From Myxococcaceae bacterium (GTDB lineage Bacteria > Myxococcota > Myxococcia > Myxococcales > Myxococcaceae): 35,095 nt of DNA. The stretch covers positions 1 through 35,095 of the forward strand of contig JAIBBQ010000052.1 of the NCBI GenBank assembly GCA_019694595.1, given 5' to 3'. Of the stretch, positions 14,651-22,819 are shown one piece after another. Position 1 is the first letter of the stretch; each line of letters opens with the position of its first letter. Below the pieces are notes generated by a model, which was given only the letters and a program-made list of their open reading frames with translations, was not told where the DNA came from and ran no database searches. A program made the position numbers and the translations under genes.

Positions 14651-17122
14651 ATGGCGCGCGCGACCCTGTTCGCTTCCTTCCTGATCACCTCCACCGCGCT
14701 GGCGCAGGTCGCCTCGGTGGAGCATGCCGACCCCTCTCGCGGGCTGACGCTGCTCGGCGGCGGCGCCGCGCTGGCCGACGACGCGTCCGCGGGTGCGTGG
14801 AACCCCGCCGGCCTCGCGCGGGTGCACGGCGCGGAGCTGCTCTACGCCCACGAGCGCAGCGTGGCGCGCGACACGCTGGGCGACGGGCTCTACGCGGCGG
14901 TGGCGCCGTTCGACCTGGTGTCGCTGGGGCTGTCGCTGGAGTTCGTCCGCGACGGCAACGGCTCGAACCCCTTCCGCAAGACGACGTTCGCGCTCGCCCT
15001 GGGCAACGAGACGCTGGCGGTGGGCGCGGGGGTGAACGGCTTCGCGGGTGGCCCGCGCGACGGGCTGGTGTCGTTCGACCTCGGCGTGCAGCTGTCGCCG
15101 TGGCGCTTCCTCTCCGCGGGCATCGCGCTGCGCAACGTCGACGCGCCGGAGCGCGGCGGGCTGCGGCTGGCGCGGAGCATCGACTTCGGGCTCGGGGTGC
15201 GCCCGTTCGGCGAGCGGCTGACGGTGAGCGCCGACTTCGCGCTCGACGACCAGCAGGGCCTCGACGGGGCGCGCCTGGCGTACACCGCGCGCGGCGAGCT
15301 GCTGCGCGGGCTGTGGCTCACCGCGGGGTTCAGCCACGGGGTGACCCCGGGCGCGGCGACGTACTTCCAGGCCGGGCTCCAGGTGGACCTGGGGCACGTG
15401 GGCGCGGGCTACGGCTTCTCGTACTCGGCGCGCGGGCCGGGGCACCTCTTCACCGGGCGACTGTCGACCGACGACCACCGCGCGCTGCTGAAGCGGCCGC
15501 AGATCGCGGTGATCTCGCTCGACGGCGTGGGGGAGTCGGGCTCGCAGGGCTCGGTGGCCTCGCTCCTGGGCATTCCCACCGAGGACCGCTACCTGCGGCT
15601 GTGGCGGGCGCTCGAGGCCGCGCGCCGCGACGACCGGCTCGCCGGCGTGGTGCTCAAGGTGGAGACCGCGGGCGTGGGCATGGCGCGCGCCCAGGAGCTG
15701 CGGCAGGCGGTGCTGGCGCTGCGCGCCCAGGGCAAGGTGGTGGTCGCGCTGCTGCTGTCGGCCACCGACGCCGACTACCTGTACGCCTCGGCGGCGGACA
15801 AGGTGTACGCGGTGCCCGAGGCGATGCTGCAGCTCGACGGGCTGCAGGCGAGCGCGCTCTTCTTCGGCGACGCGGCGGCGAAGCTCGGGGTGGCGGTCGA
15901 CGTGGCGCGGGTGGGCGCGTACAAGAACTCGCCCGACCAGTTCACCCGCTCGTCGATGAGCGAGGAGCAGAAGGAAGCGCTCAACGCGCTGCTCGACGCG
16001 CAGGTGAAGGTGGCGCAGGAAGCGGCGAGCGAGTCGCGCCAGCTCGGCGCCGAGCAGTGGCAGGCGGCGCTCGACCAGGGGCTCAAGTCGGTGAAGAAGT
16101 GCCAGGCGCTGGGGCTCATCGACGGCGTGGTGAGCGCCTCCCAGCTCGACGAGCAGCTGCGCGAGCTGGTGCCCGGGGCGCAGGTGAACCCGCAGTACTC
16201 GCCGTTCGGCGACCACAGCACGCGCTGGGCGTCGCGGCCGAAGATCGCCATCGTGCCGGTGCTGGGCACCATCTCCGGGGGCAGCGATTCCGCCGACCCG
16301 CTGGGCCTGATGGCGAGCGCGGGCGCAGAGACCTTCATCCGTTCGCTGGACGCGGCGGTGGCGGACCCCGACGTGAAGGCGATCGTGCTGCGGGTGGACT
16401 CGCCGGGCGGCGACGGGCTCGCGTCGGACCTGATGTACCGGGCGGTGCTGGAGGCGCGGAAGCGCAAGCCGGTGATCGCCTCCATGGGCGACGTGGCGGC
16501 CTCGGGCGGCTACTACGTGGCGATGGGCGCGGAGCAGATCTTCGCTCAGCGCGCGACGGTGACCGGCAGCATCGGCGTGTTCGTCATCAAGCCGGGGCTC
16601 AAGCCGCTCGCGGAGTCGCTCGGGGTGCACCAGGAGGTGCTGCGGCGCGCGGCGCTGTCGGGCAGCTTCGAGTTCTTCGAGCCGTGGAGCGACGCCCAGC
16701 GCACCGCGATGCAGGCGTGGGTCGAGGACTTCTACGACACGTTCATCACCGAGGCCGCCGCGAGCCGCAAGCGCACCAAGGAGCAGATCGACGCGGTGGC
16801 CCGCGGCCGGGTGTGGAGCGGCGCCGACGCGCAGGCCAAGGGCCTGGTCGACACCCTGGGCGGCCTCACCGAGGCGCTGGAGGCCGCGCGCGCGCGCGCC
16901 GAGCTGGGCACCGACGCGGAGGTGGTGATCGCCCACCCGTCTGGCGGGCTGCTGGGCGCGGCGCTCGGCGGCGGGCTGCTCGCGGAGGTGCTGGAGAAGA
17001 CCGCCGCCCCGGGCACTCCCAGCCCCGCCGCCCAGCGGCTGCTGCGCGCGGTGGCGCCCTCGCTGCCGGGCATCGACGGCCGCGCCCAGGCGCGGATGGA
17101 AGACGACATCCAGATCCGGTGA
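14651..17122 (+). CDS. sppA: SppA-type (S49) protease fused to a porin-like N-terminal domain
   Basis: This 823-aa protein has a signal peptide (MARATLFASFLITSTALA|QV). Residues about 28-270 look like an outer-membrane barrel of the FadL/PorV type: GGGAALADDASAGAWNPAGLA (residues 36-56) is the typical N-terminal signature, followed by many short amphipathic strands (LSLGLSLEF, FALALGN, LTVSADFAL). Residues about 283-770 are a complete tandem S49 peptidase: KRPQIAVISLDG opens the first half, Lys425 (VGAYKNSPDQF) matches the catalytic lysine, and Ser618 (GDVAASGGYYVAM) matches the nucleophile of E. coli SppA. Ordinary SppA is an inner-membrane enzyme that degrades signal peptides; here a barrel would place the protease at the outer membrane facing the periplasm. 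It is the last gene of the PEGA operon. Both catalytic residues are present. The barrel assignment is inference from sequence pattern. Confidence 0.87.
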   Translation: MARATLFASFLITSTALAQVASVEHADPSRGLTLLGGGAALADDASAGAWNPAGLARVHGAELLYAHERSVARDTLGDGLYAAVAPFDLVSLGLSLEFVRDGNGSNPFRKTTFALALGNETLAVGAGVNGFAGGPRDGLVSFDLGVQLSPWRFLSAGIALRNVDAPERGGLRLARSIDFGLGVRPFGERLTVSADFALDDQQGLDGARLAYTARGELLRGLWLTAGFSHGVTPGAATYFQAGLQVDLGHVGAGYGFSYSARGPGHLFTGRLSTDDHRALLKRPQIAVISLDGVGESGSQGSVASLLGIPTEDRYLRLWRALEAARRDDRLAGVVLKVETAGVGMARAQELRQAVLALRAQGKVVVALLLSATDADYLYASAADKVYAVPEAMLQLDGLQASALFFGDAAAKLGVAVDVARVGAYKNSPDQFTRSSMSEEQKEALNALLDAQVKVAQEAASESRQLGAEQWQAALDQGLKSVKKCQALGLIDGVVSASQLDEQLRELVPGAQVNPQYSPFGDHSTRWASRPKIAIVPVLGTISGGSDSADPLGLMASAGAETFIRSLDAAVADPDVKAIVLRVDSPGGDGLASDLMYRAVLEARKRKPVIASMGDVAASGGYYVAMGAEQIFAQRATVTGSIGVFVIKPGLKPLAESLGVHQEVLRRAALSGSFEFFEPWSDAQRTAMQAWVEDFYDTFITEAAASRKRTKEQIDAVARGRVWSGADAQAKGLVDTLGGLTEALEAARARAELGTDAEVVIAHPSGGLLGAALGGGLLAEVLEKTAAPGTPSPAAQRLLRAVAPSLPGIDGRAQARMEDDIQIR

Positions 17123-17210: not shown

Positions 17211-18035
17211 GTGACCGCCACGACGTCCTGGATGTACCGACTCGAGCGCCGCCATTCCATCTGGGCGAGCCGCGTGGTGATCCTGTTGGTGGTCTCGCTC
17301 GCGCTCTGGAGCTACTTCTGGAAGCCGCTCGGGCTGCTGGCGATCCTCGGGGATCTGCTGCTGCGGCCGTACCTGCACTTCGTGGCCGGCGCCATCGCGC
17401 ACGAGGGGACCCACGGCCACCTGGGCAACAGCAAGGCCGCGAACTCGTGGTGGGGCCGCCTCGCGCTGGTGCCCACGGGCTGCGCGTGGATCACCTTCGC
17501 CAAGACGCACCACGCGCACCACGCGCACACCAACGTCGAAGGTGACGACCCCGACGCGTTTCTGCACAGCAGCAAGAAGTGGCAGCTCCCGCTCCGGGTG
17601 CTGGCGATGCCGCACCGCTGGTTCCACTGGCTCTACGTGCGCGGCAAGGTCACGCGCGCGGTGGCGGTGGAGTACGTGCTCACGTACGTGGCGTACGTCG
17701 CCATCTACGGCGGCATCGCGGCGGTGGTCGGTCCGGCGCGGGTGCTCTACGGCCTCTTGACGGCCGCCTTCATCCACTCGTTCCTGCTCTGGGTGCCCTT
17801 CGCCATGAAGACGCACGAGGGCTACCGCACGGGCGCGCACGAGGAGCGCTCGCACAACTATTACGGCTACCTCCCCTTCTTCTTTTCCTTCAGCCTTTCG
17901 CTGCACCGGGTGCACCACCTGAAGCCGAAGCTGAGCTGGCTGGAGATGCTGCGGTACGTCGAGCCGGGCACGCTCTGGCAGAGCCTCACCTTCCGCCGGG
18001 ACGTGGGTCGCTTCGATGCGGGCGTCACTGGCTGA
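17211..18035 (+). CDS. Membrane fatty-acid desaturase / hydroxylase family protein
   Basis: This 274-aa protein starts at GTG 17211 after GGGGAG. It has the three histidine boxes of membrane di-iron desaturases: HEGTH (64-68), HHAHH (100-104, HxxHH) and HRVHH (232-236, HxxHH). Hydrophobic stretches at about 22-60, 154-200 and 219-231 would make about four membrane helices, with the boxes on the cytoplasmic face. The family uses O2 and an electron donor to desaturate or hydroxylate acyl chains, carotenoids or related lipids; the substrate cannot be read from sequence. No fused cytochrome b5 or ferredoxin domain is present. The 3' end overlaps the start of the next gene by 20 nt, so the two are translationally coupled. 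The regulator is unknown; the upstream inverted repeat is the likely control site. Confidence 0.88.
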   Translation: MTATTSWMYRLERRHSIWASRVVILLVVSLALWSYFWKPLGLLAILGDLLLRPYLHFVAGAIAHEGTHGHLGNSKAANSWWGRLALVPTGCAWITFAKTHHAHHAHTNVEGDDPDAFLHSSKKWQLPLRVLAMPHRWFHWLYVRGKVTRAVAVEYVLTYVAYVAIYGGIAAVVGPARVLYGLLTAAFIHSFLLWVPFAMKTHEGYRTGAHEERSHNYYGYLPFFFSFSLSLHRVHHLKPKLSWLEMLRYVEPGTLWQSLTFRRDVGRFDAGVTG

Positions 18036-19203
18036 CCTCGCCTTCGCGGCGGTCGACGGCGCGACCTCGCCGGCCGACGTCGCGGTGGTGCTGAACTTCG
18101 CCGAGGGCTGCGGGCTGAGCCCCGAGCAGCTCGAGGCCGGCGCGGCGCGGGCCAACGCGGCCTACCCCCGCGCGACCCAGCGGCTCGTCGGGAGCCGGTG
18201 GCGCGACGGCGAGGCGGCCCCGCGGCGGCTCCAGGTGGCGGAGGCGGCCCAGGGCGCGCTCGAGGCATGCATCGCGCAGTTCCTCGCGGAACCCTTCCGG
18301 CTGAGCGACGGGGGCGCCCCGCCGCAGCTGCTGGTGCGGTCAGGCGCCGCCGAGCACCTGGTGACCCGCCTGCACCACGCCCAGGCGGACATGCAGAGCA
18401 TCTTCCTCTGGCTGCGCGCGCAGCTCGAAGCCCAGGCCGCGCCCGCGGCGCTGACGCTGCGGGAGCACCCGCGCCCGGCGCGCCGCAGCGTGCACGCTCC
18501 GGCCGGCCCGTCGTCGCGGCTCGCGGGCGGCGACGTCACGCGCAGCACCGGCGTGCGAGCCTGGGCGCTGCGCTCCTGGCCGGAGCGGACGACGCCCGAC
18601 GGCTTCACCTGGAACGATCTGCTGGCGGCGATCGCGCTCACCGCGGTGGAGCGCTGGAACGCCGCGCGCGGCGGCGGCGCCGAGGTCGGCCTGTGGATGC
18701 CGGTGGGCGCGCGGGTCGATCACTTCGCGGGCTTCGGCAACGGCTCGGGCCGCATCCGGGTGTACGCGAAGCCGTTCACCACCTTCGCCGCGCGCGCCAG
18801 GGCGGTGCGGGAGCAGCTCACCTGGAGCCGCGAGCATGGCGAGTGGGCGACGCCCCGGTGGGCCGAGCGCCTGCTCCTGCTGCCGTCGCCCTGGGTGCGG
18901 TGGATCCTGCGGCGGCAGGCGAGCTCGCCCGGCGTGGACATGGGCACCACGCTCTTCACCCACCTCCAGCGGCTGGTGCCCCGCGGGGCGCCGGAGCCAC
19001 TGCCCGCGGTGAGCTCGGTCGCGCTGATCTCCCACCTGCTGCCGGCGCACCCCATCTCGATGTCGGCGATGGGACTGCGCGGCACCACCCACCTCACCTT
19101 CACCTGGGACGCGGGCCGCTTCAGCCCCGACGAGGCGCGCGCGTTCATCGAGGGCTTCGAGGCCACCCGGGACCAAGCGTTCGCCGAGCTCGACCATGCG
19201 TGA
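18016..19203 (+). CDS. Condensation-domain-like acyltransferase (HHxxxD)
   Basis: This 395-aa protein is built like the CoA-dependent acyltransferase / condensation superfamily (NRPS condensation, wax-ester synthase and PapA-type proteins). The key motif is HLVTRLHHAQADMQS, with H120-H121-x3-D125; His121 would be the catalytic base. The Gly usual after Asp is replaced by Met. Later parts fit the family: NDLLAAIALTAVERWN (helix lining the second half), LWMPVGARVDHFAGFGNGSG (counterpart of the N/DFGW-type region) and LISHLLPAHPISMSAMG near the end. It would join an acyl group to an amine or alcohol acceptor. It is a single free-standing domain without carrier-protein or adenylation modules, and its partner adenylating enzyme may be the GH3 protein immediately downstream (8-nt overlap). 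Substrates are unknown, and the departure from HHxxxDG makes activity uncertain. Confidence 0.72.
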   Translation: MRASLADLAFAAVDGATSPADVAVVLNFAEGCGLSPEQLEAGAARANAAYPRATQRLVGSRWRDGEAAPRRLQVAEAAQGALEACIAQFLAEPFRLSDGGAPPQLLVRSGAAEHLVTRLHHAQADMQSIFLWLRAQLEAQAAPAALTLREHPRPARRSVHAPAGPSSRLAGGDVTRSTGVRAWALRSWPERTTPDGFTWNDLLAAIALTAVERWNAARGGGAEVGLWMPVGARVDHFAGFGNGSGRIRVYAKPFTTFAARARAVREQLTWSREHGEWATPRWAERLLLLPSPWVRWILRRQASSPGVDMGTTLFTHLQRLVPRGAPEPLPAVSSVALISHLLPAHPISMSAMGLRGTTHLTFTWDAGRFSPDEARAFIEGFEATRDQAFAELDHA

Positions 19204-20767
19204 GCGGCTGAACGAGGCGCTGCTGGGCCTCATCGCCCTGCTCTTCCGGGCCTTCGCCTGGGTGCTGGAGCAGCGGCTGCGCATGCGCCTCGAAGGCTTC
19301 CGGGAAGCGCAGCGGGCCCTCCGCGCCGAGCTCGAGGTGCGCGACGAGACGCCGGTCGCCACCTTCGCCGAGCTCGGGCCGTCGCTCGAGCGGGCGCGCG
19401 TGCGCCACGGCCGCCGCGCGGTGGAGGTGACCACCTCGGGCTCGACGAGCGCGGCCAAGCGCCTCGTCTACACGCGGGGCCGTCTGATCCTGACGCGCTT
19501 CCTCTTCATCGACGTCTTCGCGCGGCTGATGCGCGCGGCGCGGTGCCGGCGCTGGAGCCTCTTCGTGCTCGCGCCGCGCGGCGACGACGACTCGCTGAGC
19601 TCGGCGCTCAACCGGGAGACGCGGGCGCCGACCTACCCCGAGGCGCTCGAAGGGCCGTACCGGGTGATGCGCGACGCCGCGTTCGCCGAGGCCTGCGCGC
19701 GGCACGGCGAGACCGCGGCGCGCGCCTGGCTGCTCGCGGTGTCCAACCCCGGGTTCCTCTACGCCACCAACCCGTCGACGCTGGCGGTGTTCTTCGAGTC
19801 GCTGGGGCCCGAGTGGTCGCGGGTGTCGGCGCTCGCCGCGGCCTTCCTGCGCGGCGAGGAGCCCGGGCTTGCGCGCCTGTTCCGGCAGACCGCGACGCTG
19901 GGCGCCCGCGCGCGGCTCGAGCGCATGGCCGGCTCGGCGGCGCCGCTGGCGGTCACCGAGCTCGCGCCGGGCCTCGAGGTGTTCGCGTGCTGGGACGGCG
20001 GCTACGTGCGGCCCTTCCTGGAGCGCGCGCGCCGGCACCTCCCGGAGTCGAAGGTTCGCTTCCTTCCGATGTACTCGATGTCCACCGAGGTGGTGGAGAC
20101 GCTCGGGGTGGCAGTGGGCGAAGGCGCGGCGTTCGACGTGGCCTACCTGCCCTGCGCGCCGGGGGTGCTCTACGAGTTCGCCCCCGAAGGCGACGGGCCG
20201 CCGCGATTGCTTTCGCCCTGGGAGCTCGAGCCAGGGAAGTCGTACGGCCTGGTGGTGAGCGACCGCTTCGGGCTCACCCGCTACCAGACCGACGACGTGT
20301 TCGAGTGCCGCCGGCTCGTCGACGGCCACCCCGACCTGCGCTTCCTGCGGCGGCGGGGCCTGAGCTACTCGTTCACCGGCGAGAAGCTGACCGCGGAGCA
20401 CCTCACCGCGGCCTACGCGCTGGCGCGGGCGCGGCTCGGCGTGGGGAGCGACGACACCCACTGGTGCGCCTTCCCCACCCTGGGCCGCGACGGTGCCACG
20501 CCGGGGTACCGGCTCATCCGCGTGGGCCAGGCGAAGGGGCCGGCCACCGCGGAGGTGGCGCGCGCGGTCGACGAGGCGCTGGCCGAGGTCAACGGGGAGT
20601 ACCGGCAGAAGCGGCAGACCGGCCGGCTGGCGCCGCTCGAAGGCCTGGAGCTCGACGTGCAGCGGTTCGTCGCCGCGGTGGCCGGCCCGAGCGCGGTGGG
20701 CACCTGGGAGAACCAGTTCAAGTTTCTCCCCCTGTCGCCCCGGCTGTGGGACGAGGGCGTGCGATGA
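19196..20767 (+). CDS. GH3-family adenylating acyl-amide synthetase
   Basis: This 523-aa protein is the length typical of GH3 enzymes, best known in plants, where they adenylate a carboxylic acid and transfer it to an amino acid. The three ATP/AMP motifs are recognisable: TTSGSTSAAKRLVYT (79-93, phosphate loop), MYSMSTE (292-298, position of the YxSSEG-type motif) and RYQTDDVFE (362-370, position of the YRxGD motif). GEKLTAEHL (395-403) marks the hinge to the C-terminal domain. The N-terminal 30 residues are a hydrophobic/amphipathic helix (LNEALLGLIALLFRAFAWVLE) that may associate with membrane. The gene overlaps both neighbours (8 nt with the condensation-like gene, ATGA with the HAD gene). 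The acid and the acceptor are unknown; a lipid-derived acid from the desaturase step is inference. Confidence 0.82.
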   Translation: MRERLNEALLGLIALLFRAFAWVLEQRLRMRLEGFREAQRALRAELEVRDETPVATFAELGPSLERARVRHGRRAVEVTTSGSTSAAKRLVYTRGRLILTRFLFIDVFARLMRAARCRRWSLFVLAPRGDDDSLSSALNRETRAPTYPEALEGPYRVMRDAAFAEACARHGETAARAWLLAVSNPGFLYATNPSTLAVFFESLGPEWSRVSALAAAFLRGEEPGLARLFRQTATLGARARLERMAGSAAPLAVTELAPGLEVFACWDGGYVRPFLERARRHLPESKVRFLPMYSMSTEVVETLGVAVGEGAAFDVAYLPCAPGVLYEFAPEGDGPPRLLSPWELEPGKSYGLVVSDRFGLTRYQTDDVFECRRLVDGHPDLRFLRRRGLSYSFTGEKLTAEHLTAAYALARARLGVGSDDTHWCAFPTLGRDGATPGYRLIRVGQAKGPATAEVARAVDEALAEVNGEYRQKRQTGRLAPLEGLELDVQRFVAAVAGPSAVGTWENQFKFLPLSPRLWDEGVR

Positions 20768-21324
20768 CGCCGCGCCTCGAAGGCGTGCGGCTGGTGACGT
20801 GGGACGTCGACGGCACGCTCTACGACGCCGCCCGGCTGCGCGCGGTGCTGCGGCGGCGGGCGCTGCGGCTGCAGCACCTGGGTGCGCTCTGGGCGGTGCT
20901 CTCGACCCAGCGCGCGGTGAAGGCGCAGCGGTCGGGTGACGGGCGAGTGCTGGCCGACGTGCGCGCCACCAGCCTGCCGCGGCTCGAGGCGCAGGACGCG
21001 TTCCTCGCCGAGCAGCTGCGCACCATCGGCGCCCGGCGCGAGGCCCTGGCGCTGCTCGAAGCGGTGCGCGGGGCGGGCATCGCGCAAGCGGCGCTGAGCG
21101 ACTTTCCCTGCCGTAGGAAGATCGCGGCGCTGGGGCTCGACCGCTACTTCGAGCGCCGCCACGATGCGGCCTCGCTGGGCTTCTGGAAGCCGTCGCGCGC
21201 GCTCTTTGCCGAGGTGGAACGGCTGCACGGGGTGACTCCCGGGGAACACCTCCACGTGGGCGACCGGGACGACACCGACGGTGCCGGCGCCCGGGCGGTG
21301 GGCTGCGCCTTCCACCTGCTGTGA
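20764..21324 (+). CDS. HAD-superfamily hydrolase
   Basis: This 186-aa protein has all four HAD motifs: DVDGT (14-18, Asp14 nucleophile and Asp16 acid/base), Ser112 in ALSDF, Lys142 in GFWKPS and GDRDDTD (166-172, Mg2+ ligands). The helical cap lies between motifs I and II (about 22-95). It is probably a small-molecule phosphatase; the spacing and cap resemble phosphoglycolate-phosphatase-like (subfamily IA) enzymes, but the substrate is not predictable. ATG overlaps the GH3 stop (ATGA), making it the fourth coupled gene of the desaturase operon. An alternative is a general housekeeping phosphatase caught in the operon, though the strict overlap argues for a joint function. Confidence 0.86.
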   Translation: MTPRLEGVRLVTWDVDGTLYDAARLRAVLRRRALRLQHLGALWAVLSTQRAVKAQRSGDGRVLADVRATSLPRLEAQDAFLAEQLRTIGARREALALLEAVRGAGIAQAALSDFPCRRKIAALGLDRYFERRHDAASLGFWKPSRALFAEVERLHGVTPGEHLHVGDRDDTDGAGARAVGCAFHLL

Positions 21325-21346: not shown

Positions 21347-22819
21347 ATGTTCGGCATCGGAAAGAAGCCCGTGGCGGGCGACGAGGCCTCGCTGACCCAG
21401 CCGATCCCGGCGGGGTGGCAGATCGTGGACCTGGGGCTGCTCGGCAAAGGCGGCATGTCGCGCGTCTACCGGGTGCGCGACGAGACGCTGGGCCGCGAGG
21501 TGGCCTTCAAGGTGCTGCGGCCGGAGCTGGCGAGCGAGAGCCAGGCGCTGGATCGCTTCGTGGAAGAGGCGCGCATCACCGCGCAGCTCGATCACCCGAA
21601 CATCCCCCCCGTCTACGCGCTGGCGGCGGACAAGAAGAAGACCACCTGCTTCACCATGAAGGTGCTGTCGGGCCAGACGCTGCAGCAGCTGCTGGTCGAC
21701 GGCCAGGTGGCGCCCAACGAGACGCTCTTCCGCGCGCTCGAGGTGCTGGTCCGGGTGTGCGACGCCATGGCGTACGCGCACTCCAAGGGCATCATCCACT
21801 GCGACCTCAAGCCGACCAACGTGATGGTGGGCGACTTCGGGCAGATCTACGTCGTCGACTGGGGCCTGGCGATGCGCAAGGCCGACCTGCCGAGCGAGAA
21901 GGACGACCACGGCGCGGCGATCGGCACCCCGGCGTACATGGCGCCCGAGCAGGCCCGGGGCAAGAACCACGCGCTCGACGAGCGCACCGACATCTTCCAG
22001 CTGGGCGGCATCCTCTACCGGATGCTCGCGGGGCGGCCGCCGTACGTGGCGAACACCGCCGAGGCCACGGTGAAGCTCGCGGAGAAGGCGGAGTGGACCT
22101 CGCCCACGCTCTTCGCGCGCGCAGGGCAGCTGATGCCCGGCCGCCTGGTGACCATGGCCAAGCGGGCGCTGGAGCCCAATCCGGCCGACCGCTACCAGAC
22201 GGTGGCCGACTTCAAGAGCGACCTCGAAGACTTCATCAAGGGCACCGCGCGGCTGCCGGAGAAGCGGTACCAGGCCGGCGAGGTGATCATCCAGGAAGGC
22301 GACGTGGGCGACTGCGCCTACGTGATCCTCGACGGGCACTGCCAGGCGAACCGCATGGTGGCGGGCAAGAAGCAGCTGCTGCGGCTGATGGGCCCGGGCG
22401 AGATGTTCGGCGAGGCAGCGGTGCTCACCGGCACGCCGCGGACCGCGACGGTGACCGCGCTCATCGACACCACGCTGGCGGTGGTGGACGCGACCTACCT
22501 GACCGAGGAGATGGAGCGCACCTCGCTCATCGCGCTCGCCATTCGCGCGGTGGCCTCGAGCTTCCTCGACCTGCACGCGCAGACCGCGACCCTCATCAAG
22601 GAGCAGACGCTGGCGCGCGCGGTGGAGCTGGTGCTCACCGAGCTGGTCTTCCACAGCCGGGTGGAGGCCGACGGCTCGCACTCCGTGCCGTGGAAGGCGC
22701 TGCTCGACAAGGTCACCCAGAAGACCGGGCTGGCGGCCGACCTCATCACCCAGCGGGTGGCGCGGCAGCCGGGCGTGAAGATCGACGTGGCGGGCGACCG
22801 GCTGCGGCTGGCGCAGTAG
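21347..22819 (+). CDS. Ser/Thr protein kinase fused to a CRP-like cyclic-nucleotide-binding region
   Basis: This 490-aa protein starts at ATG 21347 after AGGAG. Residues about 25-295 are an STPK domain: GKGGMSRVY (33-41), catalytic Lys55 in VAFKVL, HCDLKPTN (151-158) with Asp153, DWG (171-173) in place of DFG, and APE (199-201). Residues about 305-390 are a cyclic-nucleotide-binding domain with FGEAAVLTGTPRTATV (354-369), whose Glu356 and Arg365 match the ribose/phosphate contacts in CRP and PKA-type pockets. Residues about 420-490 are a small helical plus strand segment (VTQKTGLAADLITQRVA...VKIDVAGDRLRLA) that resembles a CRP winged helix, though this is tentative. No transmembrane segment is seen. 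The Cys in place of the Arg of HRD means activation-loop control may differ from RD kinases. Its start is 22 nt after the HAD stop, so readthrough is possible. Role: cNMP-controlled phosphorylation, inferred. Confidence 0.9.
   Translation: MFGIGKKPVAGDEASLTQPIPAGWQIVDLGLLGKGGMSRVYRVRDETLGREVAFKVLRPELASESQALDRFVEEARITAQLDHPNIPPVYALAADKKKTTCFTMKVLSGQTLQQLLVDGQVAPNETLFRALEVLVRVCDAMAYAHSKGIIHCDLKPTNVMVGDFGQIYVVDWGLAMRKADLPSEKDDHGAAIGTPAYMAPEQARGKNHALDERTDIFQLGGILYRMLAGRPPYVANTAEATVKLAEKAEWTSPTLFARAGQLMPGRLVTMAKRALEPNPADRYQTVADFKSDLEDFIKGTARLPEKRYQAGEVIIQEGDVGDCAYVILDGHCQANRMVAGKKQLLRLMGPGEMFGEAAVLTGTPRTATVTALIDTTLAVVDATYLTEEMERTSLIALAIRAVASSFLDLHAQTATLIKEQTLARAVELVLTELVFHSRVEADGSHSVPWKALLDKVTQKTGLAADLITQRVARQPGVKIDVAGDRLRLAQ

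Follow-up and report, generated by a model that had tools for sequence, protein, structure and literature searches.

Gene content of the locus

The window analysed here, a stretch of 35,095 nt from a Myxococcaceae bacterium (contig JAIBBQ010000052.1), carries four consecutive genes on the forward strand whose reading frames overlap head to tail. The first (17211..18035; 274 aa, GTG start) encodes a predicted membrane di-iron enzyme of the fatty-acid desaturase/hydroxylase type, and the second (18016..19203; 395 aa) encodes a putative condensation-fold acyltransferase with an HHxxxD motif and no Pfam family. The third (19196..20767; 523 aa) specifies a divergent GH3-type acyl-acid amido synthetase, a member of the group termed clade W below, and the fourth (20764..21324; 186 aa) a HAD phosphatase-like protein from a HAD family that partners GH3 enzymes. 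An initial annotation had described four same-strand genes with overlaps of 20, 8 and 4 nt, which the ORF coordinates bear out exactly: the desaturase and HHxxxD genes share 18016..18035 (20 nt), the HHxxxD and GH3 genes 19196..19203 (8 nt) and the GH3 and HAD genes 20764..20767 (4 nt, ATGA), all on the forward strand. The motifs it named, i.e. the desaturase histidine boxes, HHAQAD, the GH3 motifs and four HAD motifs, are all present as well. The 20-nt overlap probably reflects translational coupling. A ribosome-binding-like GGGGAG lies just 5' of the desaturase GTG start, while a scan for sigma-70 promoters found none and is uninformative for this organism. Values of GC3 lie between 0.93 and 0.97 across all four genes and at 0.98 in the two flanking genes; this similarity argues that the four ORFs are real genes of native composition and not shadow ORFs.

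On the 5' side, the operon is flanked by a gene for an SppA-type (S49) peptidase (14651-17122; 823 aa) whose matched peptidase region is preceded by an N-terminal extension of roughly 300 residues. On the 3' side, a gene for a Ser/Thr kinase with a cyclic-nucleotide-binding (cNMP) domain (21347-22819) starts 22 nt after the HAD gene on the same strand. The kinase was rejected as a fifth operon member because it occurs in relatives that lack the four genes, one of which carries a 69% identical copy. In relatives with the kinase gene, where an empty site for the operon was sought, SppA does not adjoin the kinase. No carrier protein, PKS/NRPS, exporter, transporter, dedicated regulator or head-group gene was recognised beside the operon.

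The product of the first gene matches the Pfam family FA_desaturase (PF00487; 2.4e-16, 60.7 bits with a cut-off of 29.7) and contains the histidine boxes H64EGTH, H100HAHH and H232RVHH. Judged by its sequence, it is a member of this membrane fatty-acid desaturase family and would act as a desaturase or hydroxylase. Its structure prediction (pLDDT 50) returned no fold matches and is uninformative.

The second protein carries the motif H120HAQAD and has no credible Pfam family; the Pfam WS/DGAT family is matched neither by it nor by the single orthologue described below. Outside this orthologue, a profile of the HHxxxD protein gives weak matches to two WS/DGAT proteins, over the region of the GFGNGS stretch, and to a 1726-aa ORF, at the HHxxxD region. 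We read this ORF, which has the size of an NRPS, as one. PDB sequence searches with the HHxxxD protein, its profile and the desaturase profile gave nothing useful, and a search of plasmids returned no HHxxxD relative. An AlphaFold model built from two sequences has low confidence (pLDDT 50), and all 50 of its best PDB matches listed by Foldseek are condensation, cyclization, epimerization or WS/DGAT-type structures (best 8e-7, TM about 0.3), including the WS/DGAT 6chj and the free-standing enzymes VibH (1l5a) and SgcC5 (4znm). The protein shares the HHxxxD motif and, going by this low-confidence model, the predicted fold with these last three, but differs from them in having no sequence-level family match and in being linked to GH3 and desaturase genes instead of NRPS/PKS or neutral-lipid genes. 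Motif and fold matches of this low-confidence model support the earlier proposal of a condensation-fold acyltransferase outside any assembly line, and the protein likely belongs to the condensation-domain/CoA-dependent acyltransferase superfamily.

Conservation of the desaturase, HHxxxD and GH3 genes

When 195 genomes of the phylum were searched with the window GH3 as query, one strong relative outside the window emerged, in a genome from another family (G163). Its contig JAUHYN010000333.1 (L075) carries desaturase, HHxxxD and GH3 genes in the same order and strand arrangement as in the window, with identities of 43%, 39% and 44% and phmmer E-values of 6e-68, 7e-46 and 2e-84, respectively. The junctions overlap here as well, by 17 nt between desaturase and HHxxxD and by 4 nt (GTGA) between HHxxxD and GH3. 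Active sites are kept throughout: all three histidine boxes of the desaturase, the HHAxxD motif (here HHAAGD) with the GFGNGS stretch, and the GH3 motifs. The genome is fragmented (75% complete, about 1480 contigs) and the GH3 gene runs off the contig end. A short contig, C696, carries the matching C-terminus followed by a gene that is not a HAD; if this contig continues the G163 operon, the operon probably lacks the HAD.

The full trio is found in 2 of the 195 genomes and the full quartet in the window only. Strong matches to the desaturase and HHxxxD profiles are likewise limited to the window genome and G163; nearer relatives have no HHxxxD counterpart and contain desaturase and GH3 proteins as distant family members only. 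A scan of genome contigs for close relatives with single proteins returned none, and a search of contigs with two-row alignments yielded the G163 contig and one Planctomycetota metagenome-assembled genome (MAG). By these sequence comparisons, the trio is a conserved yet rare unit that is absent, not scattered, in nearer relatives. The four-gene arrangement as a whole is judged to be more than chance, given that a distant genome repeats the order of its first three genes, again with overlaps. Scattering of the genes among relatives and degenerate HHxxxD or GH3 active sites in orthologues were both sought as evidence against a joint pathway; neither was seen, the sites being conserved in the orthologues found. 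The joint pathway proposed initially is thus favoured by the order, overlaps and active sites of the trio and by the HAD-GH3 linkage in about 20 genomes described below, but it is no phylum-wide feature.

Clade W and the HAD partner

The window GH3 matches the Pfam models GH3_M (1.4e-11, 44.7 bits with a cut-off of 23.6) and GH3_C (8.8e-5, 23.6 bits, equal to its cut-off of 23.6), while the N-terminal model PF03321 falls below the reporting limit and reaches 19.3-19.5 bits in two other clade W members. Its motifs are TSGST (80-84), YSMSTE (293) and RYQTDD (362-367). Similarity to plant GH3 structures is weak (phmmer, best 3e-6 to 4b2g). The protein shares family and nucleotide-binding motifs I and III with the plant enzymes JAR1, GH3.1 and GH3.12, but it has a shorter N-terminal part, an altered motif II (YSMSTE) and no hormone context. 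The initial assignment as a GH3-type acyl-acid ligase is thereby upheld: by curated domain models and motifs I and III, the protein is a GH3 family member for which amide formation is predicted.

In a tree of 41 GH3 sequences, the window GH3 groups with those of G163 and the Planctomycetota MAG with full support (100/100) on a stem of 2.77 changes per site. This group, clade W, lies far from the GH3s that accompany HAD genes elsewhere in the phylum and from the other GH3s of the window's own genome. Two more members, from the same small class, were detected among 343 Planctomycetota genomes, which brings clade W to five members, one of them incomplete. Motif I (T-S-G-S/T-T) and YxTxD are kept in all five, and the motif I serine (S81 in the window) is invariant; it is the counterpart of S115, which is essential in the T-S-G-T-T motif I of OlsH (PMC12493201). 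No HHxxxD gene is present in the Planctomycetota genome examined for it. At two Planctomycetota loci, the clade W GH3 is followed by a fatty-acyl-AMP ligase (FAAL) fused to an AurF-like diiron domain, the latter recognised by a weak Pfam match. One of them (L153:2-4939, reverse strand) also has a HAD related to that of the window (1.5e-16) directly 5' of the GH3, and in the other (L154:141-4440, forward strand) the GH3 lies beside the fusion. Both resemble an uncharacterised biosynthetic cluster and are broken off by contig ends.

Further GH3 genes were noted in the course of these searches. The window genome encodes two on contigs C59 and C209 and another on contig C111 (L037:3364-7572), about 2.3 kb from an acyl-carrier-protein-like ORF. 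The plasmid search gave two distant GH3s in unrelated clusters, one of them next to a type I PKS on a Streptomyces plasmid.

The fourth protein of the operon matches the Pfam family Hydrolase (PF00702; 8.5e-12) and contains the HAD motifs DVDGT (14), SDF (112), KP (142) and GDRDDTD (166). When the phylum was searched with it, the 24 best matches outside the window (E < 1e-6) included 19 encoded right next to the 3' end of a GH3 gene in the same orientation. In a HAD tree that also took in unlinked HADs, the window HAD, itself on a long branch, falls within a GH3-linked group (94/94) that comprises 21 linked and three unlinked HADs besides the window protein. The two-gene GH3-HAD unit occurs in many families of the phylum (L078, L081-L086, L100-L102, L106-L113 and L115), usually with the two genes touching or overlapping and mostly with no other biosynthetic genes alongside; no description of it was found in the literature searched. 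These units resemble the window in having a HAD of the same family beside the GH3, on the same strand and often overlapping, but differ in that their GH3s form another clade and mostly stand alone or with a PlsC-type acyltransferase. Descent of the window GH3 from this clade is unsupported, and its position in a clade of its own implies either that the HAD was kept during extreme GH3 divergence or that it came to join a second lineage of GH3s. The GH3s linked to HADs elsewhere and those of clade W belong to different clades, so that the HAD family, as judged from sequence, accompanies at least two GH3 lineages; with the other partners differing between them, it can be argued to serve the GH3 step in general. 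The idea that the HAD dephosphorylates an acceptor is possible, but such a role would not be specific to this pathway, as the HAD is a recurrent partner of GH3s in general.

In another family of the window's order, a PlsC-type acyltransferase gene (PF01553) lies 5' of GH3 and HAD genes in two genomes, G037 and G056 (loci L033:5928-9305 and L034:3-3155, both on the reverse strand). The HHxxxD protein of the window occupies the place of PlsC in these operons, which by sequence follow the same plan of ligase, acyltransferase and HAD with a different acyltransferase. A HAD of the same family is also encoded at L103:4160-5907 with no GH3 alongside, where its gene overlaps one read from its sequence as a UbiA-like prenyltransferase gene; this pair possibly represents a different use of the HAD family.

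A candidate acyl-amide lipid pathway and its alternatives

The closest published counterpart is OlsH/OlsI, which carries out GH3-dependent ornithine-lipid synthesis in Singulisphaera acidiphila (PMC12493201). The two systems share an operon with a GH3-type ligase and a second acyltransferase, the conserved motif I serine and acyl chemistry without a carrier-protein assembly line. However, OlsI is an alpha/beta-hydrolase, whereas the second acyltransferase of the window is predicted to have a condensation fold; moreover, the window adds a desaturase and a HAD and lacks the N-methyltransferase OlsG. The window GH3 scores 27.9 bits against the NCBIfam OlsH equivalog, for which the cut-off is 620, and its neighbours are the desaturase, HHxxxD, HAD, kinase and SppA genes instead of olsI and olsG. 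Given this low score and the different partners, it is not filed as OlsH, although by analogy it may work like it. The earlier statement that no named pathway contains this set therefore stands for the gene set, but the logic has a published counterpart in OlsH/OlsI (PMC12493201). No relevant paper on a GH3 pathway with a desaturase and a condensation enzyme was found in the literature searched, and OlsH/OlsI was the only bacterial GH3 pathway for a lipid found there. A 2024 review of aminolipids leaves GH3 unmentioned and regards the use of FAAL/FACL in aminolipid synthesis as not yet established (PMC11631085), and the authors of the OlsH/OlsI study leave it undecided which substrates most other bacterial GH3s use (PMC12493201).

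By analogy with OlsH and OlsI, the four genes may constitute a single operon, coupled in translation, that makes an acyl-amide lipid, a reading to which we give an even chance. Here, the GH3 would use ATP-Mg to adenylate a free carboxylic acid, fatty or other, and transfer the acyl group to an amine, with an amino acid as the likeliest acceptor, yielding an N-acyl compound and AMP, as its family and conserved motifs suggest. The HHxxxD protein would then transfer a second acyl group, for which a thioester is the probable donor, onto a hydroxyl or amine of this product. This second-acyl role is played by OlsI in Singulisphaera (PMC12493201), and in the PlsC-GH3-HAD operons it may fall to the PlsC-type protein. 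The membrane desaturase, as a PF00487 member, would desaturate or hydroxylate an acyl chain, and the linkage of the HAD suggests that it serves the GH3 step, dephosphorylating the acceptor, the product or a phosphorylated by-product.

In favour of this lipid pathway are the ordered, overlapping trio with intact active sites at 39-44% identity in a distant genome, the motif I serine that is invariant in clade W and essential in OlsH, the tie of the HAD to GH3 genes in about 20 genomes and to a clade W GH3 in one Planctomycetota genome, the PlsC-GH3-HAD units and the condensation/WS-DGAT fold of the low-confidence HHxxxD model. The FAAL/diiron fusion beside Planctomycetota clade W GH3s points to acyl-chain chemistry as well. 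Against it count the conservation of subsets only (the HAD absent from the G163 operon if C696 continues it, the HHxxxD gene from the Planctomycetota genome tested), the low confidence of the HHxxxD model (pLDDT 50, TM about 0.3) and the lack of a recognised carrier protein, transporter or head-group gene alongside. In addition, the great distance of the GH3 from OlsH and the long stem of clade W (2.77) mean that the substrates may differ completely.

Part of this evidence can be read differently. The operon could make a small secreted acyl-amide natural product or signal instead of a membrane lipid, with the GH3 coupling an amine and a modified acyl group, the HHxxxD protein working as a stand-alone condensation enzyme in the manner of VibH or SgcC5, both among the best matches of its model, and the desaturase tailoring the chain. 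The FAAL-diiron oxygenase fusion beside the Planctomycetota GH3s recalls lipopeptide-type clusters, other GH3s lie in biosynthetic clusters (e.g. on the Streptomyces plasmid) and the very patchy distribution suits a secondary pathway. Nevertheless, the genes have neither a carrier protein nor a PKS/NRPS, exporter or dedicated regulator next to them, and the membrane desaturase and the PlsC-GH3-HAD analogue point to membrane lipids; on balance, we regard a secreted product as possible but doubtful. A further reading confines the GH3 to supplying an acyl-AMP or thioester and makes the HHxxxD protein a wax-ester/diacylglycerol-type acyltransferase, so that the product would be an unsaturated ester, a storage or surface lipid, and not an amide. 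Neutral lipids are a common target of desaturases, WS/DGAT proteins make up two of the few weak HHxxxD-profile matches and 6chj is among the fold matches; yet the protein has no sequence-level Pfam match to WS/DGAT, the HAD is linked to GH3 and not to WS/DGAT genes, and characterised GH3 enzymes, OlsH included, form amides (PMC12493201), which makes an ester product quite improbable. That the four genes are accidental neighbours, or share transcription without a joint pathway, would fit the restriction of the complete quartet to the window and the absence of the HAD or HHxxxD gene from some clade W loci. This reading is hard to reconcile with a distant genome that keeps the order and overlaps of three genes at about 40% identity and with the strong tie of the HAD family to GH3 genes, and it is already close to refuted.

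A broader and rather unlikely proposal can also be put forward. Clade W, a GH3 subfamily without earlier description that is common to two bacterial phyla, would drive acyl-amide lipid pathways with interchangeable partners, either a condensation-fold acyltransferase and a membrane desaturase or a FAAL-diiron oxygenase fusion; the dedicated HAD phosphatase would be a required partner of bacterial GH3 chemistry that acts on a phosphorylated acceptor or product, and the lipids would constitute new classes with unrecorded head groups. The operon represents a compact, testable case that combines a new GH3 branch with a second acyltransferase of another kind. The link between GH3 and HAD, observed in about 20 genomes, provides a handle on the acceptor of bacterial GH3s, which may follow once the substrate of the HAD is found.
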